This document shows positions 1 to 7,047 of a stretch of 7,047 bases of DNA, one piece after another; position 1 is the first letter of the stretch, and every line of letters begins with the position of its first letter. A program made the position numbers and the translations under genes. The stretch spans positions 1-7,047 of the forward strand of contig CAMPCG010000151.1 in assembly GCA_946644025.1 (NCBI GenBank). The letters are read 5' to 3'. This DNA is from an uncultured Prevotellaceae bacterium (GTDB lineage Bacteria > Bacteroidota > Bacteroidia > Bacteroidales > Bacteroidaceae). The notes beneath the pieces are model-generated. The model searched no databases. It saw nothing but the letters and a program-made list of their open reading frames with translations, and was not told the DNA's origin.

Positions 1-1
1 C

Positions 2-547
2 GGCGAAGTCACCGGTGGCGGAGGCGGCGATATACGCGTACTCTCGTACGAGCGCGTCACCATGGACGACGGCTCGCAGATGGACGTAGCCACCGTCAGC
101 ATGAACGGCCAGCAGGCCGCCATCGTAGATGTTGATCTGGACGGCTGGGCTGACGGCATGATGGCCGACTACAACAGCGACGGCAACATCAGCGAGGACG
201 AGATACAGTCGTTCCAGGGTACCGATGTGCAAATCAGCATGGGCGACCTGGCCGCCGTGGCCGAGCAGAACAACGTGAGCAACGACCCGGGCAACGGCCC
301 TTCGAGCGAAGTCGTGGTCTATGAGGAAGGCTTCGAAGGCGACGACACCGGAGAAAGCGGAGAAAGCGGAGAAGGTGGAGACGTCATCATCGGAGAAGGA
401 GAAACAGACACAGACATCTATCCTGAGGACGACCCGAACCTCCTCATGACCAGCAACGAGGGCACTGACGGCACCCTGCCCGACTACTGCAACACGGGCG
501 ACGTGAGCGACGTGGTGGGCGACAGCGACGACATGCTGCTCGTCTGA
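2..547 (+). CDS. Acidic protein with EF-hand-like calcium loops, 3' part (5' end outside window)
   Basis: The reading frame is open to the left edge, so this is the last 181 codons of a longer gene. The ATG at 62 lies inside a conserved segment and is unlikely to be the real start. Two adjacent calcium-loop-like motifs are seen at 128-202: DVDLDG, followed by DYNSDGNISEDE, which fits the EF-hand loop pattern D-x-N/D-x-D-G-x-I-x-x-x-E. Next comes a very acidic, low-complexity tail with a GES/GEG run, a 'PDYCN' motif near the end and a terminal LLV. The same order (VT..DGS, VDVD.DG, EF loop, PDY, LLV) occurs in the next gene, so the two are tandem paralogues. By analogy, the missing N-terminus probably carries a membrane segment and this part is extracytoplasmic; that is inference. 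Its function is unknown. Calcium binding is plausible from the motif but unproven. Confidence 0.8.
   Translation, partial: GEVTGGGGGDIRVLSYERVTMDDGSQMDVATVSMNGQQAAIVDVDLDGWADGMMADYNSDGNISEDEIQSFQGTDVQISMGDLAAVAEQNNVSNDPGNGPSSEVVVYEEGFEGDDTGESGESGEGGDVIIGEGETDTDIYPEDDPNLLMTSNEGTDGTLPDYCNTGDVSDVVGDSDDMLLV
350..376 (+). repeat. 9-bp coding tandem repeat (GES/GEG)
   Basis: Three consecutive copies of a 9-bp unit, GGAGAAAGC twice and then GGAGAAGGT, encode GES-GES-GEG in the acidic tail. The unit is a multiple of three, so changes in copy number would alter length without breaking the frame. It is probably a flexible, low-complexity linker. Confidence 0.7.
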
Positions 548-597
548 CGCGGCCTACACCTTATTATAATAATAACAACTAAAAAAAGAATACGACT

Positions 598-1596
598 ATG
601 GCAACGAATGAAGAAACCATCATCCTGGGTTTAGGAAACCAGAACCAGAATAACAGTCAGACGCCCCCGCCGCGTCCTAACACCGCTAACGCCGCCGGCC
701 AGCAGCAACAGCCGCGGCCGCAACAGCCGCAACGCCCGCAGCAGGCCTACCGCCCGGCTTACCAGCCGCAGAGCAGCGACAGCAGCCAGACCTGGATGCG
801 CGTCGTGGTAGGTGGCGTGGCAGGCATCCTGTTCGGCTCGGTCAGCGCCGTGGGCGCATCGGCTGCCTACCAGCACTTTGCCAACGGCGAGGAGCCGGAG
901 CCCGAAGTAGATGTCAACCTGGACGACGTGCCCGTCACCCCCGAAAACGAGGGCCACTACACGATGAGCAACGGTCTGGAGGTAGCCGAGGTGAGCGACT
1001 CCATGTCGTTCGGCGAGGCCTTTGCCGCCGCCCGCGCCGAGGTAGGCCCCGGCGGTGTGTTCGTATGGCACGGCGGTGTCTATGGCACCTACACGGCCGA
1101 CGAGTGGAACAGCATGAGCACGGCCGAGCACAACGAGTTTGCACAGCTCTCGCAGCCCGCCATCAGCGAGAACGTCACCGCAGCGCCCGCCAACAACGTT
1201 GACGTGGTGCACCACGAGCCCGACGTACACATTCATAACGCTGCCAACGGCGACGACGATGTCTCCATCGTGGGTGTCGAGGAGGTAACACTCTCCGACG
1301 GCTCCACCGCCACGCTGGCCCAGGCTAACGTGGATGGCCACGACGTCTATATGGTCGATGTCGATCAGGACGGCACGTTCGACGTGGCAGCCATGGACGC
1401 TAACGGCAACGGACAACTCGACGACAACGAAGTCATGGACATCTCCGGCCAGGGCATGGGCATGAGCGGCGGCAGCGGCATGGCTACCACCGTGAGCGAC
1501 CCGGGCACCGACGACGGACTGCTGACCGACGCCTCCATGGGGTCGGACGGCATGCCCGACTACATGAACGATGCCGGTGGCGACCTCTTGGTATAA
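598..1596 (+). CDS. Single-pass membrane protein with glycine zipper and EF-hand-like calcium loops
   Basis: This 332-residue protein belongs to no family I can name. In order it shows: a P/Q/R-rich disordered N-terminus (about 20-65); one hydrophobic segment (about 69-91) with small residues every fourth position (G72, G76, G80, A84, S88), a glycine zipper; an acidic spacer; a compact block at about 136-181 rich in aromatic and glycine residues (GEAFAAARAEVGPGGVF, then VWHGGVYGTYTADEW); two calcium-loop-like motifs (DVDQDGTFD at 254-262 and DANGNGQLDDNE at 267-278, the second a good EF-hand loop); and a C-terminal DGMPDYMNDA resembling thrombospondin-type-3 calcium motifs. The arginines before the membrane segment suggest that the N-terminus is cytoplasmic and the calcium-loop domain periplasmic. 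It is a paralogue of the gene before it, 50 bases upstream, and the caspase gene starts 21 bases downstream. The start is the first ATG after an A/T-rich leader. The function is unknown; candidates are a sensor, an oligomeric scaffold or a pore. Confidence 0.88.
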   Translation: MATNEETIILGLGNQNQNNSQTPPPRPNTANAAGQQQQPRPQQPQRPQQAYRPAYQPQSSDSSQTWMRVVVGGVAGILFGSVSAVGASAAYQHFANGEEPEPEVDVNLDDVPVTPENEGHYTMSNGLEVAEVSDSMSFGEAFAAARAEVGPGGVFVWHGGVYGTYTADEWNSMSTAEHNEFAQLSQPAISENVTAAPANNVDVVHHEPDVHIHNAANGDDDVSIVGVEEVTLSDGSTATLAQANVDGHDVYMVDVDQDGTFDVAAMDANGNGQLDDNEVMDISGQGMGMSGGSGMATTVSDPGTDDGLLTDASMGSDGMPDYMNDAGGDLLV

Positions 1597-1617
1597 ACCC
1601 CGAAACACGTTACCGCT

Positions 1618-2373
1618 ATGAACAGAAGAACTGTCATACTGGCGCTCCTGATGCTGGTGCTGGGCCTCGGCCCGGCGCTGGCTCAGACGCAGAAGAAGGT
1701 CAACAAGATATACATCGTGACCTGCGGCATTGCCGACTACCCGGGCTACGACATGGACCTGGCGCTCTGTGCCAACGACGCAAAAACCATCAAGCAGGTG
1801 TTCGAGAAGAACAAGAAAGCCAGCTGCATCCTGCTCACCAACTCGCAGGTGACGAAGGCCGCCGTGCTCAACGCCATGAGGACGCAGTTTGCCAAGGCTA
1901 CGAAGAACGACGCCATCCTCTTCTTCTACAGCGGCCACGGAGCACCCGGCCAATTGGTGTTCTACGACGGACTTATAGAGTACAAAGACATCAAGAACAT
2001 CATGGCCAAGAGCAAGGCGGGCTCGAAGATGATCTTCGCCGATGCCTGCTTCTCGGGCAAGATGCGCAACGAGCAGCGCACGAACCACAACACCAGCGTG
2101 CCGGCCAACCTGAGGAACACGGAGGTCATGTTCTTCCTCTCCTCGCGCTCGGACGAGACCAGCATTGAGCGCCCCAGCATGAAGAACGGCTTCTTCACCG
2201 CCTACCTGCAGCGCGGACTGCGCGGCGGGGCCGACGCCAACCGCGACCGCACCATTACGGCCCGCGAGCTCTTCAACTTCGTAAGTCAGGGCGTGAAGAA
2301 AATCTCCAACGACAAGCAGCACCCCGTCATGTGGGGAAAGTTCAAACACAACATGCCCGTCATCTCCTGGTAA
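1618..2373 (+). CDS. Secreted caspase-like (C14 family) cysteine peptidase
   Basis: This 251-residue protein has a typical signal peptide (NRR, then a leucine-rich core, ending ALA|Q at residue 22), so the mature enzyme should act in the periplasm or beyond. The caspase fold is recognisable: first strand IYIVTCGIADY (31-41); the A/N-D-A segment ANDAKTIKQVF (52-62); catalytic histidine H107 in FFYSGHG; catalytic cysteine C144 in FADACFSGK; and the SSRSDETSIE segment (175-184), typical of bacterial caspase-like proteins after the catalytic Cys. It ends with ADANRDRTITARELFNFV (205-222), where many family members carry an EF-hand-like 'D.N.DG.IT..EL'. The loop glycine is Arg here, so calcium binding may be weakened. 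Both catalytic residues are present, so activity is expected; cleavage specificity cannot be read from the sequence. It is short, a peptidase domain with no fused effector. It is co-directional with FHA, PP2C and kinase genes, suggesting that it is an output or regulator of the same pathway. Confidence 0.93.
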   Translation: MNRRTVILALLMLVLGLGPALAQTQKKVNKIYIVTCGIADYPGYDMDLALCANDAKTIKQVFEKNKKASCILLTNSQVTKAAVLNAMRTQFAKATKNDAILFFYSGHGAPGQLVFYDGLIEYKDIKNIMAKSKAGSKMIFADACFSGKMRNEQRTNHNTSVPANLRNTEVMFFLSSRSDETSIERPSMKNGFFTAYLQRGLRGGADANRDRTITARELFNFVSQGVKKISNDKQHPVMWGKFKHNMPVISW

Positions 2374-2410
2374 CAAATAACGAACGTAAGACCTATACAC
2401 ACACAACGAT

Positions 2411-2953
2411 ATGGAAGTAACAAGAATAAAGTGTCCGAAATGCCAAGCACAGCTGGACGTAAAGAACAAACTGAACGTAGCCCAGAAGGTCATCAAGTGT
2501 CCCAGCTGCGGCGCACAGATCATGGTGCGCTTCAAGCAGCAGGCACCCCCACAGGACGACGGACACACCATCTACGGCGGCACCGTGCGCCAGCCGCAAC
2601 AGCCGCACTCTGCCATGGCGCTGGGCGGATTCCTGGTACTGGGCGGCGTACGCTACGCGCTGAACATTGGCCGCAACACCATAGGCCGCAAACCGGAAGA
2701 CACCAACGCACCCGCCAAGGCCACCGTGGCACTGCCCACCAACGGCGACAAGACCATGAGCCGTCTGCACGCTGTCATTGAGACCATGAAGATGCCCGAC
2801 GGCTCCATACGCGCCATCATCAGCAACGGCGAGAACAAGAACCCCACCTTCGTGGCCGGCGTGCTGCTGAACGGGGCCGACAAGCTCATACTGAAGAACG
2901 GCGCCGAAATCAGAATGGGCGGAGTCACCATGCGTTACGAGATACCCGTCTAA
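2411..2953 (+). CDS. Zinc-ribbon and FHA domain protein (phosphothreonine reader)
   Basis: This 180-residue protein is predicted to be cytoplasmic, with no signal peptide or membrane segment. The N-terminus is a small zinc ribbon with two CPxC knuckles, C8-P-K-C11 and C30-P-S-C33, of the kind found at the start of many bacterial regulatory proteins. A short Q/P linker follows. An FHA domain covers about 75-180: LNIGRNTIGRKP (84-95), the signature SRLHAVIE (117-124) and the late LLNG (152-155) before the last strands. FHA domains bind phosphothreonine peptides, and the conserved Arg, Ser and His of that pocket are visible. Directly followed by a PP2C phosphatase gene and later by a kinase gene, it probably recruits proteins phosphorylated by that kinase. 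A role for the zinc ribbon (partner binding or dimerisation) is inference. The start is supported by the zinc-ribbon motif beginning at residue 8. Confidence 0.92.
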   Translation: MEVTRIKCPKCQAQLDVKNKLNVAQKVIKCPSCGAQIMVRFKQQAPPQDDGHTIYGGTVRQPQQPHSAMALGGFLVLGGVRYALNIGRNTIGRKPEDTNAPAKATVALPTNGDKTMSRLHAVIETMKMPDGSIRAIISNGENKNPTFVAGVLLNGADKLILKNGAEIRMGGVTMRYEIPV

Positions 2954-2975
2954 CCCCACAAAAACAATAAAACAC

Positions 2976-2980
2976 AGAGG
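2976..2980 (+). promoter_or_regulatory. Possible Shine-Dalgarno sequence of the PP2C gene
   Basis: AGAGG lies five bases before the ATG at 2986 and contains GAGG, which could pair with the 16S rRNA tail. It is the most Shine-Dalgarno-like sequence in any spacer of this window; the other starts follow A/T-rich leaders, as is usual in Bacteroidota. The match is short and could be chance. Confidence 0.3.
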
Positions 2981-2985
2981 ACGTT

Positions 2986-4461
2986 ATGAAATTCAGAATA
3001 TCACAGCCACAGGCTATACACCAAATAGGTAGCCGACCCACTCAGGAAGACTCCATCTTCCCCGTACTTAACGCTGCCACCACCAACGACCGGCTATTCA
3101 TACTCTGCGACGGAATGGGCGGACACGAGTCGGGCGAAGTAGCCAGCGGAACGGTCTGCAAGACCATGAGCGACTACATACTGAGCCGCATGCCCGCCGA
3201 CGGCGTGCTCGAAGACCAACTCCTGGAGGAAGCCCTCAGCGCCGCCTACGCTGCCGTTGACGCCAAGGACACCCACGGGCTCAAGAAGATGGGCACCACG
3301 CTGACCCTGCTCTCCATGCACAAGGGCGGCGTAACCGTAGCACACATCGGCGACAGCCGCATCTACCACCTCAGGCCCTCGACGGGGGAGATACTCTACC
3401 GCTCGCGCGACCACTCGCTGGTCTATGACCTCTTCGAGGTGGGCGAGCTGACCTTCGAGGAACTGCGGACGGCCAAGAACAAGAACGTCATTACGCGCGT
3501 CATCATGGCCAACCAGGAGCGACCCTCGAAGGCTGACATTGTACACATTACCGACGTGGAACCGGGCGACTATTTCTACCTCTGCTCCGACGGCATGCTG
3601 GAGCAGATGGACGACGACGACCTCATGGCCATCTTCAGCAGCCAAAAGACCGACGACGAGAAGCGCAAGCTGCTGACCGGAGAGACCATCGACAACAGCG
3701 ACAACCACTCGGCTTACTTCATACACATAGAGTCGGTGGAGCGCGAGCAGGGCGACAACCTGCTGGTAAGCGACGAGGCCTCGTTCCGCGCCGCCAACAA
3801 GGTGTTCATGGCCGAGCGCGAACAGCAGGGCGCCACAGCCATGATGCCACCGGCACCGCCCGTGGCCGACGAGGTGCCCGTAGGCGAAGAGGAGGTGGTC
3901 CAGGTAGTGGCCCACGAGCCAGAGCCCCCGCAGGCCATTCCGCCACAGCCGCAGATGCACCAGGCACCGCCGCAGTACAACCAGACGGCCCCCCTGCCAC
4001 CCACGAAGAACAGTGGCGGCGGCGGAGCCATGAAGTGGGCCATCATCGGCGTGCTGTTCATTGCAGTCATTGCGGCAGCCGGCATTCTCTTCTTCCTGCT
4101 GAAGGGCAGCGACGACAAGCCCGCGCCACAGGCACAGCCGCAGGAAATCAACCTGCCCGTGAAGCCTACCCCGGCACCCTCGCGCCAGCAAGACCTGGAC
4201 GAGGACGACTACATGCAGCCCAGCGCCACGACGCCAAGCCGGCCGGCACGCACTACGACAACCACACCAGCAAGACCTGCCAACACAAGCCCGTCGAAGA
4301 TTAACCAAAGCCACATAGACCAGATTAACACGGGCGGCAAGCACGACGACCCCAACAAGCCCGGCAAGGTGAAGCCTAACACGCAGCCCCAGAAGCCAGC
4401 CCCAGGAAAGGACAGCGACACCCACATTAACGACCCCTTCACGGAACCTTCCGACGACTAA
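2986..4461 (+). CDS. Membrane-anchored PP2C-type Ser/Thr phosphatase
   Basis: This 491-residue protein removes phosphate from Ser/Thr residues with a two-metal (Mn/Mg) centre. The PP2C motifs run in order through about 11-250: RPTQEDS (17-23), FILCDGMGGHESG (38-50, metal ligand D42), GTTLTLL (103-109), VAHIGDSRIY (118-127), RDHSLV (141-146), FYLCSDGM (197-204, D202) and DNSDNHSAYFIHI (236-248), where D239-N240 stands for the usual final D-N. All metal-binding aspartates appear present, so it should be active. The catalytic domain is followed by a P/Q/E-rich linker (285-345), one membrane helix (about 350-372) and a 119-residue P/T/K-rich tail that should lie outside the cytoplasm. This resembles Stp/PrpC-like phosphatases that counter a partner kinase, with an added anchor and tail. 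It begins 32 bases after the FHA gene; the kinase gene lies two genes on. The tail may touch the cell wall or partner proteins (inference). Confidence 0.95.
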   Translation: MKFRISQPQAIHQIGSRPTQEDSIFPVLNAATTNDRLFILCDGMGGHESGEVASGTVCKTMSDYILSRMPADGVLEDQLLEEALSAAYAAVDAKDTHGLKKMGTTLTLLSMHKGGVTVAHIGDSRIYHLRPSTGEILYRSRDHSLVYDLFEVGELTFEELRTAKNKNVITRVIMANQERPSKADIVHITDVEPGDYFYLCSDGMLEQMDDDDLMAIFSSQKTDDEKRKLLTGETIDNSDNHSAYFIHIESVEREQGDNLLVSDEASFRAANKVFMAEREQQGATAMMPPAPPVADEVPVGEEEVVQVVAHEPEPPQAIPPQPQMHQAPPQYNQTAPLPPTKNSGGGGAMKWAIIGVLFIAVIAAAGILFFLLKGSDDKPAPQAQPQEINLPVKPTPAPSRQQDLDEDDYMQPSATTPSRPARTTTTTPARPANTSPSKINQSHIDQINTGGKHDDPNKPGKVKPNTQPQKPAPGKDSDTHINDPFTEPSDD

Positions 4462-4489
4462 CCAACAATCCAATAACACTTATTCTATT

Positions 4490-5779
4490 ATGAAGACAAA
4501 CCTTATCAAAACCACCACGCTGTTGCTGATGGCTGCTTTTATCGGCATACAGACGGCAGGAGCTCAGGGCACCATCACCAAGCCCAACAAGCCCGCGCCA
4601 AAGCCAAGGACGAACACCAACACCAGCACCACGCGCCCCACCCCCCGCACCAACACCAGCACCAACAGCGGGACGAGGCGTGACGCCATGTCGGGTGTCA
4701 CCATCACCAAGATAGAGATTGGCAACGTGACCTACAACGGCGAGATGCTGACCTACTACGGCAACACGCTCTACGAGAACGACATGAAGTACGCCAAGCC
4801 CCGACTGACCTACAACTGCACAAGGGCAGCCAGCGACGTGACGCTCTACACAAAGATTTACCGCCCCGACGGCTCGCTGGTCACCAACAGCTCGTCGCCC
4901 ACGGGCTACACCACGACCGACGATGCGGACTTCACCACCGGCACCGCACAGACACTCGCACTGCCCGGATGGGGCAGCGACGACGGCGGCTACTACGAGA
5001 AGGGCATCTGGCGCTGGGAGATATGGTTCAACGGGCGCAAGCTGGCCTCGACGTCGTTCTCCGTCTATAGCGGCGGCACGGGCGTAACGCCGTCGAACTC
5101 TTCAGGCACCAGCGGCTTCGAATTCTACGGCACCACGCGCAGCTATACCGACGAGGCAAAGGCCCTGTCGTACATCACCACCACCATCAAGGAGTGGGGC
5201 GACAACGGCTGCCGCACGGGAGCCATCAGCGAGGACGAGCGCGGCGTGGCCATCTACGGCAAGAACGGCTACTGCTACACCGGTGCCTGTCCCGAGGGTC
5301 TGAAGAAGGCCATCAAGGAGTATAACGAGAAAGAGTATCGCATCTCGGACGTCACCGTCACCGACTCGGGCTGGTGGTGCGTCGTGTGGAACGACAACGG
5401 CTACCGTGGACACATGCCCGACAAGATGTCGGAAATGATGAAGCAGTACAACAACGACGGCGAGACCATCTACAGCGTGTCTATCTGCGAGAACGGCAAC
5501 TTCGTCATCGTGACCGACAAGCACTGGTATGCCTCGCACGAAACGGACAACGCCAACCTGCAGCGTGCCTACGACAAGTTCGGAACCATACGCAGCTGCT
5601 CGGTCACGAACAAGGGCTTCGTGGCCTGCTGCGACCGGGGTGTCTATTACAAGGACATTCCCACCAACGTGGAGACGGCCCTGAAGGAACAGGACTTCCG
5701 GCCGAAGGTGGTGAAGTTTACCGATAGCGGAACGTACCTCATCACCGACGGCGACAAGCAGCGCTCGTGGTACATGTAA
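4490..5779 (+). CDS. Secreted repeat protein of unknown function (beta-sandwich plus ~40-residue repeats)
   Basis: I do not recognise the family of this 429-residue protein. It has a clear signal peptide (MKTNLIK, hydrophobic core, AGA|Q at residue 25), so it is exported. A low-complexity P/K/T/N-rich linker (28-66) is followed by a probable all-beta domain (68-195), whose end (GIWRWEIWFNGRKLASTSFSVY, in two parts 172-182 and 183-193) looks like the last strands of an immunoglobulin-like sandwich. The C-terminal half has about five degenerate repeats of 38-44 residues, beginning near 238, 284, 327, 367 and 406. Each follows the pattern I-x-S/D-V-x-V-T-x-x-G-x-x-x-V-x-x-x-x-G-Y, then an amphipathic helix such as MSEMMKQYN or LKKAIKEYN; the last copy is cut short. 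Such repeats often build a propeller or solenoid for binding partners. It sits 28 bases after the phosphatase gene and 61 before the kinase gene, so it probably serves as the extracytoplasmic part of the same system. Confidence 0.88.
   Translation: MKTNLIKTTTLLLMAAFIGIQTAGAQGTITKPNKPAPKPRTNTNTSTTRPTPRTNTSTNSGTRRDAMSGVTITKIEIGNVTYNGEMLTYYGNTLYENDMKYAKPRLTYNCTRAASDVTLYTKIYRPDGSLVTNSSSPTGYTTTDDADFTTGTAQTLALPGWGSDDGGYYEKGIWRWEIWFNGRKLASTSFSVYSGGTGVTPSNSSGTSGFEFYGTTRSYTDEAKALSYITTTIKEWGDNGCRTGAISEDERGVAIYGKNGYCYTGACPEGLKKAIKEYNEKEYRISDVTVTDSGWWCVVWNDNGYRGHMPDKMSEMMKQYNNDGETIYSVSICENGNFVIVTDKHWYASHETDNANLQRAYDKFGTIRSCSVTNKGFVACCDRGVYYKDIPTNVETALKEQDFRPKVVKFTDSGTYLITDGDKQRSWYM
5201..5776 (+). repeat. 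Protein-level tandem repeats in the secreted protein
   Basis: About five diverged repeats of 38-44 residues are visible at protein level only (residues about 238-281, 284-325, 327-365, 367-404 and a partial 406-429). Shared positions are a beta segment with T-D/N-x-G, a second strand with V-V/C-x-x-D/N, and a short helix with K/M-x-x-Y-N/D. The DNA copies have diverged too far for recent recombination. Confidence 0.6.
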
Positions 5780-5788
5780 GAAGAAACA

Positions 5789-5826
5789 GTAAATCGAAAA
5801 TCCGTAAATCGAAAATCCGTAAATCG
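5789..5826 (+). repeat. 15-bp direct repeats in the kinase gene leader
   Basis: GTAAATCGAAAATCC occurs twice in perfect tandem (5789-5803 and 5804-5818), followed by a partial third copy, GTAAATCG (5819-5826), and then TAAATAAC. The repeats fill most of the 61-base spacer before the kinase start. They have no hairpin potential that I can see, so they do not look like a terminator. Slipped-strand changes would alter the spacing between the upstream stop and the kinase start. Confidence 0.8.
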
Positions 5827-5840
5827 TAAATAACAAACAG

Positions 5841-7047
5841 ATGGATACACAACAGAATTCACTACTGCGACAGGGAGCACAGCTCCAAAACGGTCGATAC
5901 ACCATAGTCCGCGTGCTCGGACAGGGCGGCTTCGGCATTACCTACCAGGCCATCACGAAGGAGAAAGTAACCGGCAACCTGGGCGAAATGGAAGTCGAGG
6001 TGCCCGTGGCTGTCAAGGAGTTCTTCATGAAGGACAGCTGCCTGCGCGACCAGACTAACAACAACGTCTCGCTGCCCTCGACGGGCAGTACCGAGCAGTT
6101 GGACAAGTACCGCCAGAAGTTCATCAAGGAGGCTCACAACCTTGCCTCGCTGAACCACCCGAACATTGTGCACGTGGCCGACGTGTTCGAGGAGAACAAC
6201 ACGGTCTATTACGTCATGCAGTTCCTCAAGGACGGCTCACTGCGCGACAAGCTGAAGGCCCAAGGGCGGCTGAGCGATGCTGACGCCAGGCGCTACATCA
6301 CCCAGATAGCCGAGGCGTTGCACTACATGCACAACGACAAGCACATGTGCCACTACGACGTGAAGCCGGGCAACATCCTGCTCAACGGCGACAAGGCCAT
6401 GCTCATTGACTTCGGCATATCGAAGAACTACACCTCCGACGGACGCGAGACCAGTGCCACGCCCGTAGGACTGAGCAAGGGCTTCGCTCCCCTGGAGCAG
6501 TTCCAGCAGTCGCTGCAGGACTTCTCGCCCGTCTCCGACATCTACAGCCTCGGTGCCACACTCTACAACCTCGTGACCGGCGAAGTGCCCCCCGAGGCAT
6601 CGACCGTCAACGAGGAAGGACTGGGCCAACGCCCTGACTACGTGGAGGAGCAGACGTGGAAGGCCATCGTGGCCGCCATGCAGCCCCGCCGCAAGGACCG
6701 CCCGCAAAGCATGCAGCAGTTCATCGACATTCTCTACAACCAGAACGTGGCACAGCCCGAAGCGGCAGCCGCTGTCGTGGAAACTGGCGACGAGACCATG
6801 GTAGGCGGCACGCCACTGCCCCCCGCCATTGAGGAGGAGGAGGACGACGAGGTAGTAGTGTCGCAGGCTGCCCCGCAGGTTCAGGGTGTCATGCCCCCAC
6901 CCCCGCCCATTCCGGGAGTGACACCGCAGCCAGCCCCCGCCTACACCCCCGCAGGCGGTGCTGACAACGAGGCCACCCAGTACTACGGACAACACCCAAC
7001 ACCCAACACCCAACACCCAACGGCCAACACCCAACACCCAACACCCA
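5841..7047 (+). CDS. Ser/Thr protein kinase (Hanks type), 3' end outside window
   Basis: The frame is open to the right edge, giving 402 residues of an incomplete protein. The kinase domain (about 18-300) is intact: glycine loop LGQGGFGITY (26-35), lysine K59 in VAVKEFF, alpha-C glutamate E97 in FIKEAHNLASL, catalytic loop HYDVKPGNILL (171-181; D173, K175, N178), DFG at 190-192, GFAPLEQF (214-221), DIYSLGATLY (233-242) and R287 in RRKDRPQSMQQF. The usual HRD is HYD, so it is a non-RD kinase. After the domain come an acidic run (331-337), a proline-rich segment (351-370) and, from about 384, repeats of QHPTPNT encoded by a 7-bp microsatellite. No membrane helix is seen so far; one could lie downstream, followed by a sensor or target domain. 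It is the probable partner of the PP2C phosphatase and FHA reader upstream. The ATG at 5841 follows an A/T-rich leader and places the glycine loop at the normal distance. Confidence 0.95.
   Translation, partial: MDTQQNSLLRQGAQLQNGRYTIVRVLGQGGFGITYQAITKEKVTGNLGEMEVEVPVAVKEFFMKDSCLRDQTNNNVSLPSTGSTEQLDKYRQKFIKEAHNLASLNHPNIVHVADVFEENNTVYYVMQFLKDGSLRDKLKAQGRLSDADARRYITQIAEALHYMHNDKHMCHYDVKPGNILLNGDKAMLIDFGISKNYTSDGRETSATPVGLSKGFAPLEQFQQSLQDFSPVSDIYSLGATLYNLVTGEVPPEASTVNEEGLGQRPDYVEEQTWKAIVAAMQPRRKDRPQSMQQFIDILYNQNVAQPEAAAAVVETGDETMVGGTPLPPAIEEEEDDEVVVSQAAPQVQGVMPPPPPIPGVTPQPAPAYTPAGGADNEATQYYGQHPTPNTQHPTANTQHPTP
6991..7046 (+). repeat. Heptanucleotide microsatellite (AACACCC)8 in the kinase reading frame
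   Basis: Eight consecutive copies of AACACCC occur, with the fifth changed to AACGGCC (7019-7025). The array continues to the last base of the window, so its true length is unknown. Translated in the kinase frame it gives QHPTPNT, QHPTANT, QHPTP. Seven is not a multiple of three, so gain or loss of one or two copies would shift the frame, while three copies would keep it. The complementary strand is a series of GGG tracts with four-base spacers. Confidence 0.92.

Follow-up and report, generated by a model that had tools for sequence, protein, structure and literature searches.

A conserved Bacteroidales gene cluster with a caspase-like peptidase as a candidate trans-envelope phosphothreonine switch

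What do a Ser/Thr kinase, a PP2C phosphatase, an FHA protein and a caspase homologue with a predicted signal segment do together in one row of genes? The question was raised by a 7,047-nucleotide stretch of DNA from an uncultured Prevotellaceae bacterium (assembly GCA_946644025.1, contig CAMPCG010000151.1, positions 1–7,047), the whole of which is called the window here. To our knowledge, Ser/Thr phospho-signalling in Bacteroidales is little understood, and bacterial caspases have mostly been discussed as cytoplasmic effectors. It is virtually certain that some gut and rumen Bacteroidales carry a conserved, dedicated gene cluster of the composition found in the window. We read this cluster as a trans-envelope phosphothreonine switch, with a probability of roughly 0.55.

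The window contained seven open reading frames, all on the + strand and separated, in order, by 50, 21, 37, 32, 28, and 61 bp, as an earlier note made from the letters of this DNA had described (seven co-directional genes, 21–61 base spacers). The order was an acidic calcium-loop protein, Ca1 (2–547, 5′ end cut by the window), a second such protein, Ca2 (598–1596), the caspase-like C14 peptidase (1618–2373), a zinc ribbon-FHA protein as the putative reader (2411–2953), PP2C (2986–4461), a predicted secreted protein (4490–5779), and the Ser/Thr kinase (5841–7047, 3′ end cut by the window). The seven genes of the earlier note were thus all present, but the span it gave, 1618–7047, omits the two calcium-loop paralogues. 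Its claim that the writer, eraser, and reader of Ser/Thr phosphorylation stand with a caspase homologue was borne out by Pfam matches above the curated cut-offs for the caspase (PF00656, 1.8e-20), FHA (PF00498, 8.9e-8), PP2C_2 (PF13672, 3.9e-12), and Pkinase (PF00069, 5.4e-41). The signature motifs of the kinase, PP2C, and caspase were intact in the window copies.

When one genome per species was scanned with a caspase alignment, at least 462 relatives were confirmed, and the best 80 loci were taken by caspase similarity with the neighbours ignored. Partner profiles for these loci were built from the proteins of the window and of L001, a near-identical locus in a metagenome genome of Prevotella sp. 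UBA4341. Some loci were cut by contig ends, L017–L019 were near-duplicates, and the shuffle statistics and P values given below ignore kinship. The cluster ran further upstream in L001, where the seven-gene set, real but incomplete, was extended by a LytTR gene (6770–7165) and a second FHA gene, FHA0, encoding a membrane protein with an FHA domain and a zinc ribbon at its C-terminus (7187–7888). The full-length Ca1 of L001 (7944–8930) had a transmembrane (TM) segment near the N-terminus, its true start being uncertain, and the full kinase (14260–16065) had 601 aa with a TM segment and a weak MORN match. The full Bacteroidales cluster was composed of a LytTR regulator, FHA0, acidic calcium-loop membrane proteins, the caspase, the zinc ribbon-FHA protein, PP2C, and one or more Ser/Thr kinases.

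The partner families were recognised in 60 (LytTR), 68 (FHA0), 76 (Ca1/Ca2), 77 (FHA), 77 (PP2C), 68 (kinase), and 8 (secreted protein) of the 80 loci. Six partner families were all present in 49 loci, at least four in 73, and only two or three in 7; the earlier note had proposed the co-occurrence of at least four as the mark of a dedicated system, and a genome sample blind to neighbours agreed with this. The order FHA0-Ca-caspase-FHA-PP2C was kept in 59 of the 65 loci having all five, with Ca2 as the usual upstream neighbour of the caspase. Profile matches lay on the same strand as the caspase 622 times and on the opposite strand 4 times, which is beyond chance.

That sample comprised 251 genomes spread evenly over the family to which the L031 genome belongs, this cluster-bearing genome included. 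The caspase was found in 30 genomes (E 1e-30), Ca2 in 28 (E 1e-8), and FHA0 in 27 (E 1e-15). Caspase and Ca2 were common to 23 genomes, where 3.3 were expected (P 8e-22), and all 27 FHA0 genomes had Ca2, so that these two shared 27 of 28. The caspase and Ca2 lay on the same contig in 23/23 cases, with a match-to-match gap of at most 10.9 kb and of 500 bp or less in 19, and the caspase and FHA0 did so in 22/23. In wider samples, the centre genome being counted in each, FHA0 was found in 3 of 296 genomes of the phylum, and among 198 genomes of the order 8 had the caspase (E 1e-40 or better). These counts describe a patchy cluster, carried by about one genome in nine within the L031 family and rarer beyond it.

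How the parts might work together is suggested by a short acidic threonine motif. When the pattern [DEN]-[DENSTKGHA]-T-x-[VILMYF] was searched with 500 shuffles as the control, it was found in three unrelated segments, all predicted to be cytoplasmic. The linker between the kinase domain and the TM segment carried it in 66 of 104 kinases (shuffle mean 13.0), the N-tail before the TM segment in 64 of 77 Ca2 proteins (9.7), and the linker between the zinc ribbon and the FHA domain in 41 of 74 FHA proteins (7.5); no shuffle of the 500 was as high in any of the three. The held-out loci L027–L080 gave the same picture, with 47/69 kinase linkers (8.6), 35/43 Ca2 N-tails (5.5), and 26/49 FHA linkers (4.9). 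The Ser form of the motif stayed at the shuffle level in all three segments, and the Ca2 ectodomain was depleted of the motif (20/77 against 40.2). It was less frequent in the Ca1 tails (10/34 against 2.4). The consensus was E-(E/D/K/S)-T-(I/V/Q)-(Y/V/I/L/F), and tandem copies were common. On the + strand of the window, the motif appeared as NEETII in the predicted cytoplasmic N-tail of Ca2 (607–624, pattern match 610–624) and as DETMV (6789–6803) and EATQY (6969–6983) in the juxtamembrane linker of the kinase. Judged from these sequences, the kinase, FHA, and PP2C proteins probably write, read, and erase one shared phosphothreonine code that works as such in the cell.

The layout across the membrane was given by topology predictions, which support the trans-envelope arrangement proposed in the earlier note. 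The kinase and Ca2 both appear to have the N-terminus inside and the C-terminus outside, and in the PP2C family a TM segment followed residue 230 in 59 of the 72 copies longer than 270 aa (about 4036–4101 in the window copy, as read from the sequence, before a Pro/Thr-rich tail). In the proposed mechanism, Ser/Thr kinases anchored in the membrane and bearing variable outside domains would phosphorylate the shared motif on the cytoplasmic tails, FHA proteins would read the phosphorylated motif, and PP2C would erase the phosphorylation. The outputs would be the LytTR regulator and, in most copies, the exported Arg/Lys-specific caspase-like protease. Ca2 would link the state of phosphorylation in the cytoplasm with the protease outside, serving as an anchor, inhibitor, calcium donor, or substrate. 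We infer that the cluster's kinase writes the motif, that the FHA domains bind it, and that Ca2 provides this coupling.

Several observations weigh against such a switch. The Lys/Arg count was the same on both sides of the TM segment in 17 of 104 kinases and reversed in 8. The kinase part past the TM segment matched the motif pattern slightly more often than the shuffle mean (39/104 against 29.8, maximum 42), without clear enrichment, and the PP2C linkers carried it weakly (20 occurrences against 6.7; strict form 7 against 4.1). The reversed pattern was also above the shuffles in the Ca2 tails (30 against 10.6, maximum 20), so tandem repeats account for part of the Ca2-tail signal. Matches also occurred in the FHA domain region itself (45/76 against 13.8), through what we take to be the canonical NGTxVNG strand. 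In the window, the FHA linker has DGHTIYGG, a degenerate form outside the strict pattern, and one further match of the kinase falls within the kinase domain. The motif shuffles and P values are, moreover, uncorrected for relatedness.

The predicted output enzyme was assigned to the C14 peptidases by its PF00656 score (74.1 bits, cut-off 21.4). Among the 81 profile matches, the catalytic dyad was complete (His107 81/81, Cys144 81/81), and the acidic S1 pair (Asp54 and Asp142, 80/81 each) and the ends of an EF-hand-like loop at 206–217 (Asp206 80/81, Glu217 81/81) were nearly so. In its predicted model (pLDDT 81.3, pTM 0.81) the protein has the caspase fold, matching MALT1, legumain, caspases, and metacaspases. 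The S1 residues were equated with Asp95 and Asp211 of TbMCA2 from the sequence context and from parts of PMC4357240 and PMC6426788, according to which a basic P1 residue goes with acidic residues at both S1 positions in MALT1 and TbMCA2. A preference for Arg/Lys at P1 is therefore predicted for the caspase. A hydrophobic segment preceded the mature domain in 66 of the 66 caspases with a usable anchor, and export out of the cytoplasm is predicted with this N-terminal segment as its sole basis.

Ca2 was composed of an N-tail, one TM segment (about residues 69–87), and an acidic ectodomain that comprises a conserved module (118–194) and a calcium-loop module (222–290); it showed no confident known fold. 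The calcium-loop character that the earlier note gave to the two paralogues was weak by Pfam (EF-hand_5, E 0.021 for Ca1 and 0.24 for the other, below the cut-off), but DxDxDG-type loops were present in 101 of 119 Ca1/Ca2 profile matches, and calcium binding by proteins of the cluster is predicted. Lys and Arg were scarce in Ca1/Ca2, with family values of 1.5–2.3% (median 1.5% for Ca1) compared with 10.6–17% in 11 other families of the loci. One Arg, R146 in window numbering, was invariant in 41 aligned Ca2 proteins and sits in a confidently predicted helix.

These features can also be read from the outside inwards. The caspase would then be the sensor side: activated outside, it would cut the Ca2 ectodomain, and loss of the ectodomain would alter the phospho-state inside. 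A nearly Lys/Arg-free ectodomain that keeps an invariant R146, in a protein usually encoded directly upstream of an enzyme whose acidic S1 pair predicts Arg/Lys preference, speaks for this reading. However, R146 may be structural in its helix, strongly acidic proteins are poor in Lys/Arg for other reasons, the Arg motif was found in 0/34 Ca1 proteins, and Ca2 retains the Arg in L126 and L127, which lack the caspase, as well as in L128, a locus truncated at a contig end. We consider outside-in proteolytic signalling unlikely. Control of the caspase through Ca2, as the phosphothreonine switch would have it, is a tentative proposal that we hold at somewhat less than even odds; the link from the code to the caspase is putative.

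Ca2 was present without the caspase (E 1e-30) in five genomes of the 251-genome sample. L126 had LytTR-FHA0-Ca2-FHA-PP2C with a Ca2–FHA gap of 33 bp, its 13.4 kb contig being free of kinase genes, and L127 had Ca2-FHA-PP2C with 14 bp gaps and no LytTR, FHA0, or full kinase within the 19 kb read. In both, Ca2, FHA, and PP2C were direct neighbours, uninterrupted by a caspase gene (L126 2358–4187, L127 8992–11722). L125 had LytTR-FHA0-Ca1-kinase without FHA or PP2C, and L128 and L129 were cut by contig ends. The threonine motif was kept in Ca2 and FHA in L127, and in FHA only in L126. As the Ca2-FHA-PP2C core stands without the caspase, the caspase is dispensable, and we take it for an output or input module. 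This also counts against our interpretation, since the switch cannot exist only to run the caspase, and the caspase-less clusters are the main evidence against an obligate Ca2–caspase pair.

Such loci, with their Ca2–FHA gaps of 14–33 bp, would fit a caspase that is a co-transcribed passenger, the phospho-switch governing gene expression or envelope proteins while the exported peptidase does separate housekeeping proteolysis. The 7 of 30 caspase genomes without Ca2 and FHA0 at the set thresholds (E 1e-8 and E 1e-15) point the same way. When looser profiles were used, however, one or more partner families stood next to the caspase in all seven (L103, L105–L110), at E 1e-4, a weak threshold for the generic LytTR and FHA profiles. 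The tight adjacency in 70–71 of the 80 loci and the co-occurrence of caspase and Ca2 likewise speak against a passenger, which we regard as improbable.

A conflict or suicide system, with the kinase as a sensor of attack and the caspase as the agent that kills the cell or damages its envelope, was considered because caspase effectors are known in conflict systems (parts of PMC7159879). A PADLOC scan gave strong matches to MADS and PD-T4-6 kinase models (MADS6 4.7e-55, PD-T4-6 3.6e-44) and a partial match to a caspase model (4.9e-11). PD-T4-6 is a single-kinase system, and a defence role of the cluster kinase is thus conceivable. Against this, the NCBIfam antiphage kinase model (MADS6) scored far below its cut-off, at 105.5 of 460 bits, by which the kinase matches look generic. 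Two scans gave no viral relatives, and the caspase is predicted outside the cytoplasm. In L001–L006, the flanking families shared on both sides, two in all, argue against mobility of the locus; the upstream one, on the opposite strand, is presumably a DNA ligase. Nothing speaks specifically for the stress or death pathway suggested in the earlier note: neither a toxin nor an immunity gene was recognised in the proteins that were examined, the PADLOC matches were confined to kinase models and part of a caspase model, and Ca2-FHA-PP2C also occurs without the caspase. A conflict system is very unlikely.

The outside domains of the kinases, the input side of the proposed switch, were variable. The kinase C-termini differed among loci (MORN, Sel1, PEGA plus FGE, Lcl_C, and FGE), and no C-terminal domain was recognised in 4 of the 10 kinases of this examination. 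Three to six kinase genes lay in or beside the cluster in L014, L017, L018, L069, and L077, with differing C-terminal domains where examined; L018 comes from the commensal isolate Bacteroides caecigallinarum ET21. Within the cluster of L008, a Bacteroides relative, the kinase 3′ end (1241–1429) differed from a template copy (2596–2784) at 25 of 189 positions, 24 of them template adenines. A bAvd-like gene (2016–2363) lay between the variable end and the template, and a reverse transcriptase (within the reading frame 2402–4048) between the template and the FHA gene. A diversity-generating retroelement, found in 1 of the 80 loci, thus rewrites in L008 the C-type-lectin-like end of the kinase, predicted to lie outside, which points to variable ligands for the outside domains. 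The boldest form of the switch would be a programmable inside-out caspase. In it, a phosphothreonine code on the cytoplasmic tail of an acidic, calcium-binding membrane protein would gate an Arg/Lys caspase that depends on calcium and lies outside the inner membrane. The outside domains of the controlling kinases would be freely swapped, and a diversity-generating retroelement would hypermutate them in at least one Bacteroides relative. We hold this version to be doubtful.

A 7-bp tandem repeat was observed within the coding sequence of the kinase, ahead of the TM segment, at 6990–7047 in the window and 15405–15527 in L001 (about 17.6 copies). Gain or loss of one or two units in L001 would shift the frame and give a protein of 436–527 aa instead of 601, which makes the kinase a candidate for phase variation. 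In the 80 loci, the L001 kinase was the only profile-hit gene with a 7-bp repeat of this kind, and three others had short mono- or dinucleotide runs.

Of the remaining features, the protein at 4490–5779 is predicted to be secreted, as the earlier note had it, and matched no Pfam family at a meaningful E-value. A 15-bp repeat between its gene and the kinase had 2.9 copies in the window (5789–5831) and 5.4 in L001 (14170–14250). The extra recurrent neighbours, for each of which one representative was scanned, were a BspA-type leucine-rich repeat protein (29 loci), FGE-domain proteins (12), WG/Sel1 repeat proteins (11), and a small protein, coiled-coil-looking by eye (23). A consensus scan of the window gave six terminator-like sites (8.0 in shuffles), none on the + strand, where internal terminators had been named beforehand as a refuting sign. 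It also gave two promoter-like sites (2.0 in shuffles), one of them on the + strand at 544–573, so that a separate transcript start in the Ca1–Ca2 gap is possible.

The conserved cluster gives both Bacteroidales Ser/Thr phospho-signalling and the caspase a candidate role in envelope signalling. As the putative code is defined by sequence, its wiring is testable with peptides, FHA proteins, and phosphoproteomics, and the caspase-less clusters offer a comparison.

No system of this composition turned up in literature searches directed at it, in agreement with the earlier note, which could name none. MoxR-vWA conflict systems with caspase effectors were set aside, no MoxR or vWA match being found in the seven window proteins (among the best 25 of 56 matches for the FHA protein) or in LytTR and FHA0 of L001. 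Bacterial orthocaspases and metacaspases (C14) share the fold, the dyad, and the acidic S1 pair, whereas the caspase described here is small, predicted to be exported, and encoded inside a phospho-signalling cluster; the operon section of a metacaspase survey (PMC3501461) names no such operon. Signalling kinases of cyanobacteria diversified by retroelements resemble L008 in joining a kinase to a C-type lectin variable domain (parts of PMC7517822). Here, in contrast, the arrangement occurs in 1 of 80 loci and the variable domain is predicted outside the membrane.

The kinase-kinase-phosphatase (KKP) module likewise combines kinases, PP2C, and an FHA domain within a single operon, but the KKP kinases, reported from prophages, bear CSD or FHA domains (parts of PMC11341870). 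The cluster has a separate FHA gene and kinases with TM segments and outside domains, with no CSD or FHA match on the kinases of the window, L001, and 10 others examined. In the threonine phosphorylation pathway of the type VI secretion system (T6SS), PpkA-PppA-Fha, PppA is the PP2C partner. An inner-membrane kinase phosphorylates an FHA scaffold there, as proposed here (parts of PMC12607579). The cluster differs in its added caspase and calcium-loop proteins; no T6SS structural gene was recognised by eye among the neighbours recurring in at least five loci, T6SS profiles not having been run. GarA/OdhI with PknB/PknG of Actinobacteria offers a partial parallel: an unstructured stretch preceding the FHA domain carries an acidic threonine motif (ETTS), which Ser/Thr kinases phosphorylate and which this same FHA domain then binds (parts of PMC5448819 and PMC12321487). 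In the cluster, the motif stands before the FHA domain in the 41 of 74 family copies noted above (7.5 in shuffles), the window copy having no strict match. GarA/OdhI is a metabolic regulator, whereas here the motif is found in a membrane kinase, a membrane calcium-loop protein, and an FHA protein of one caspase cluster. We file the cluster among the bacterial Ser/Thr phospho-signalling modules, as a variant with a caspase and calcium-loop proteins.

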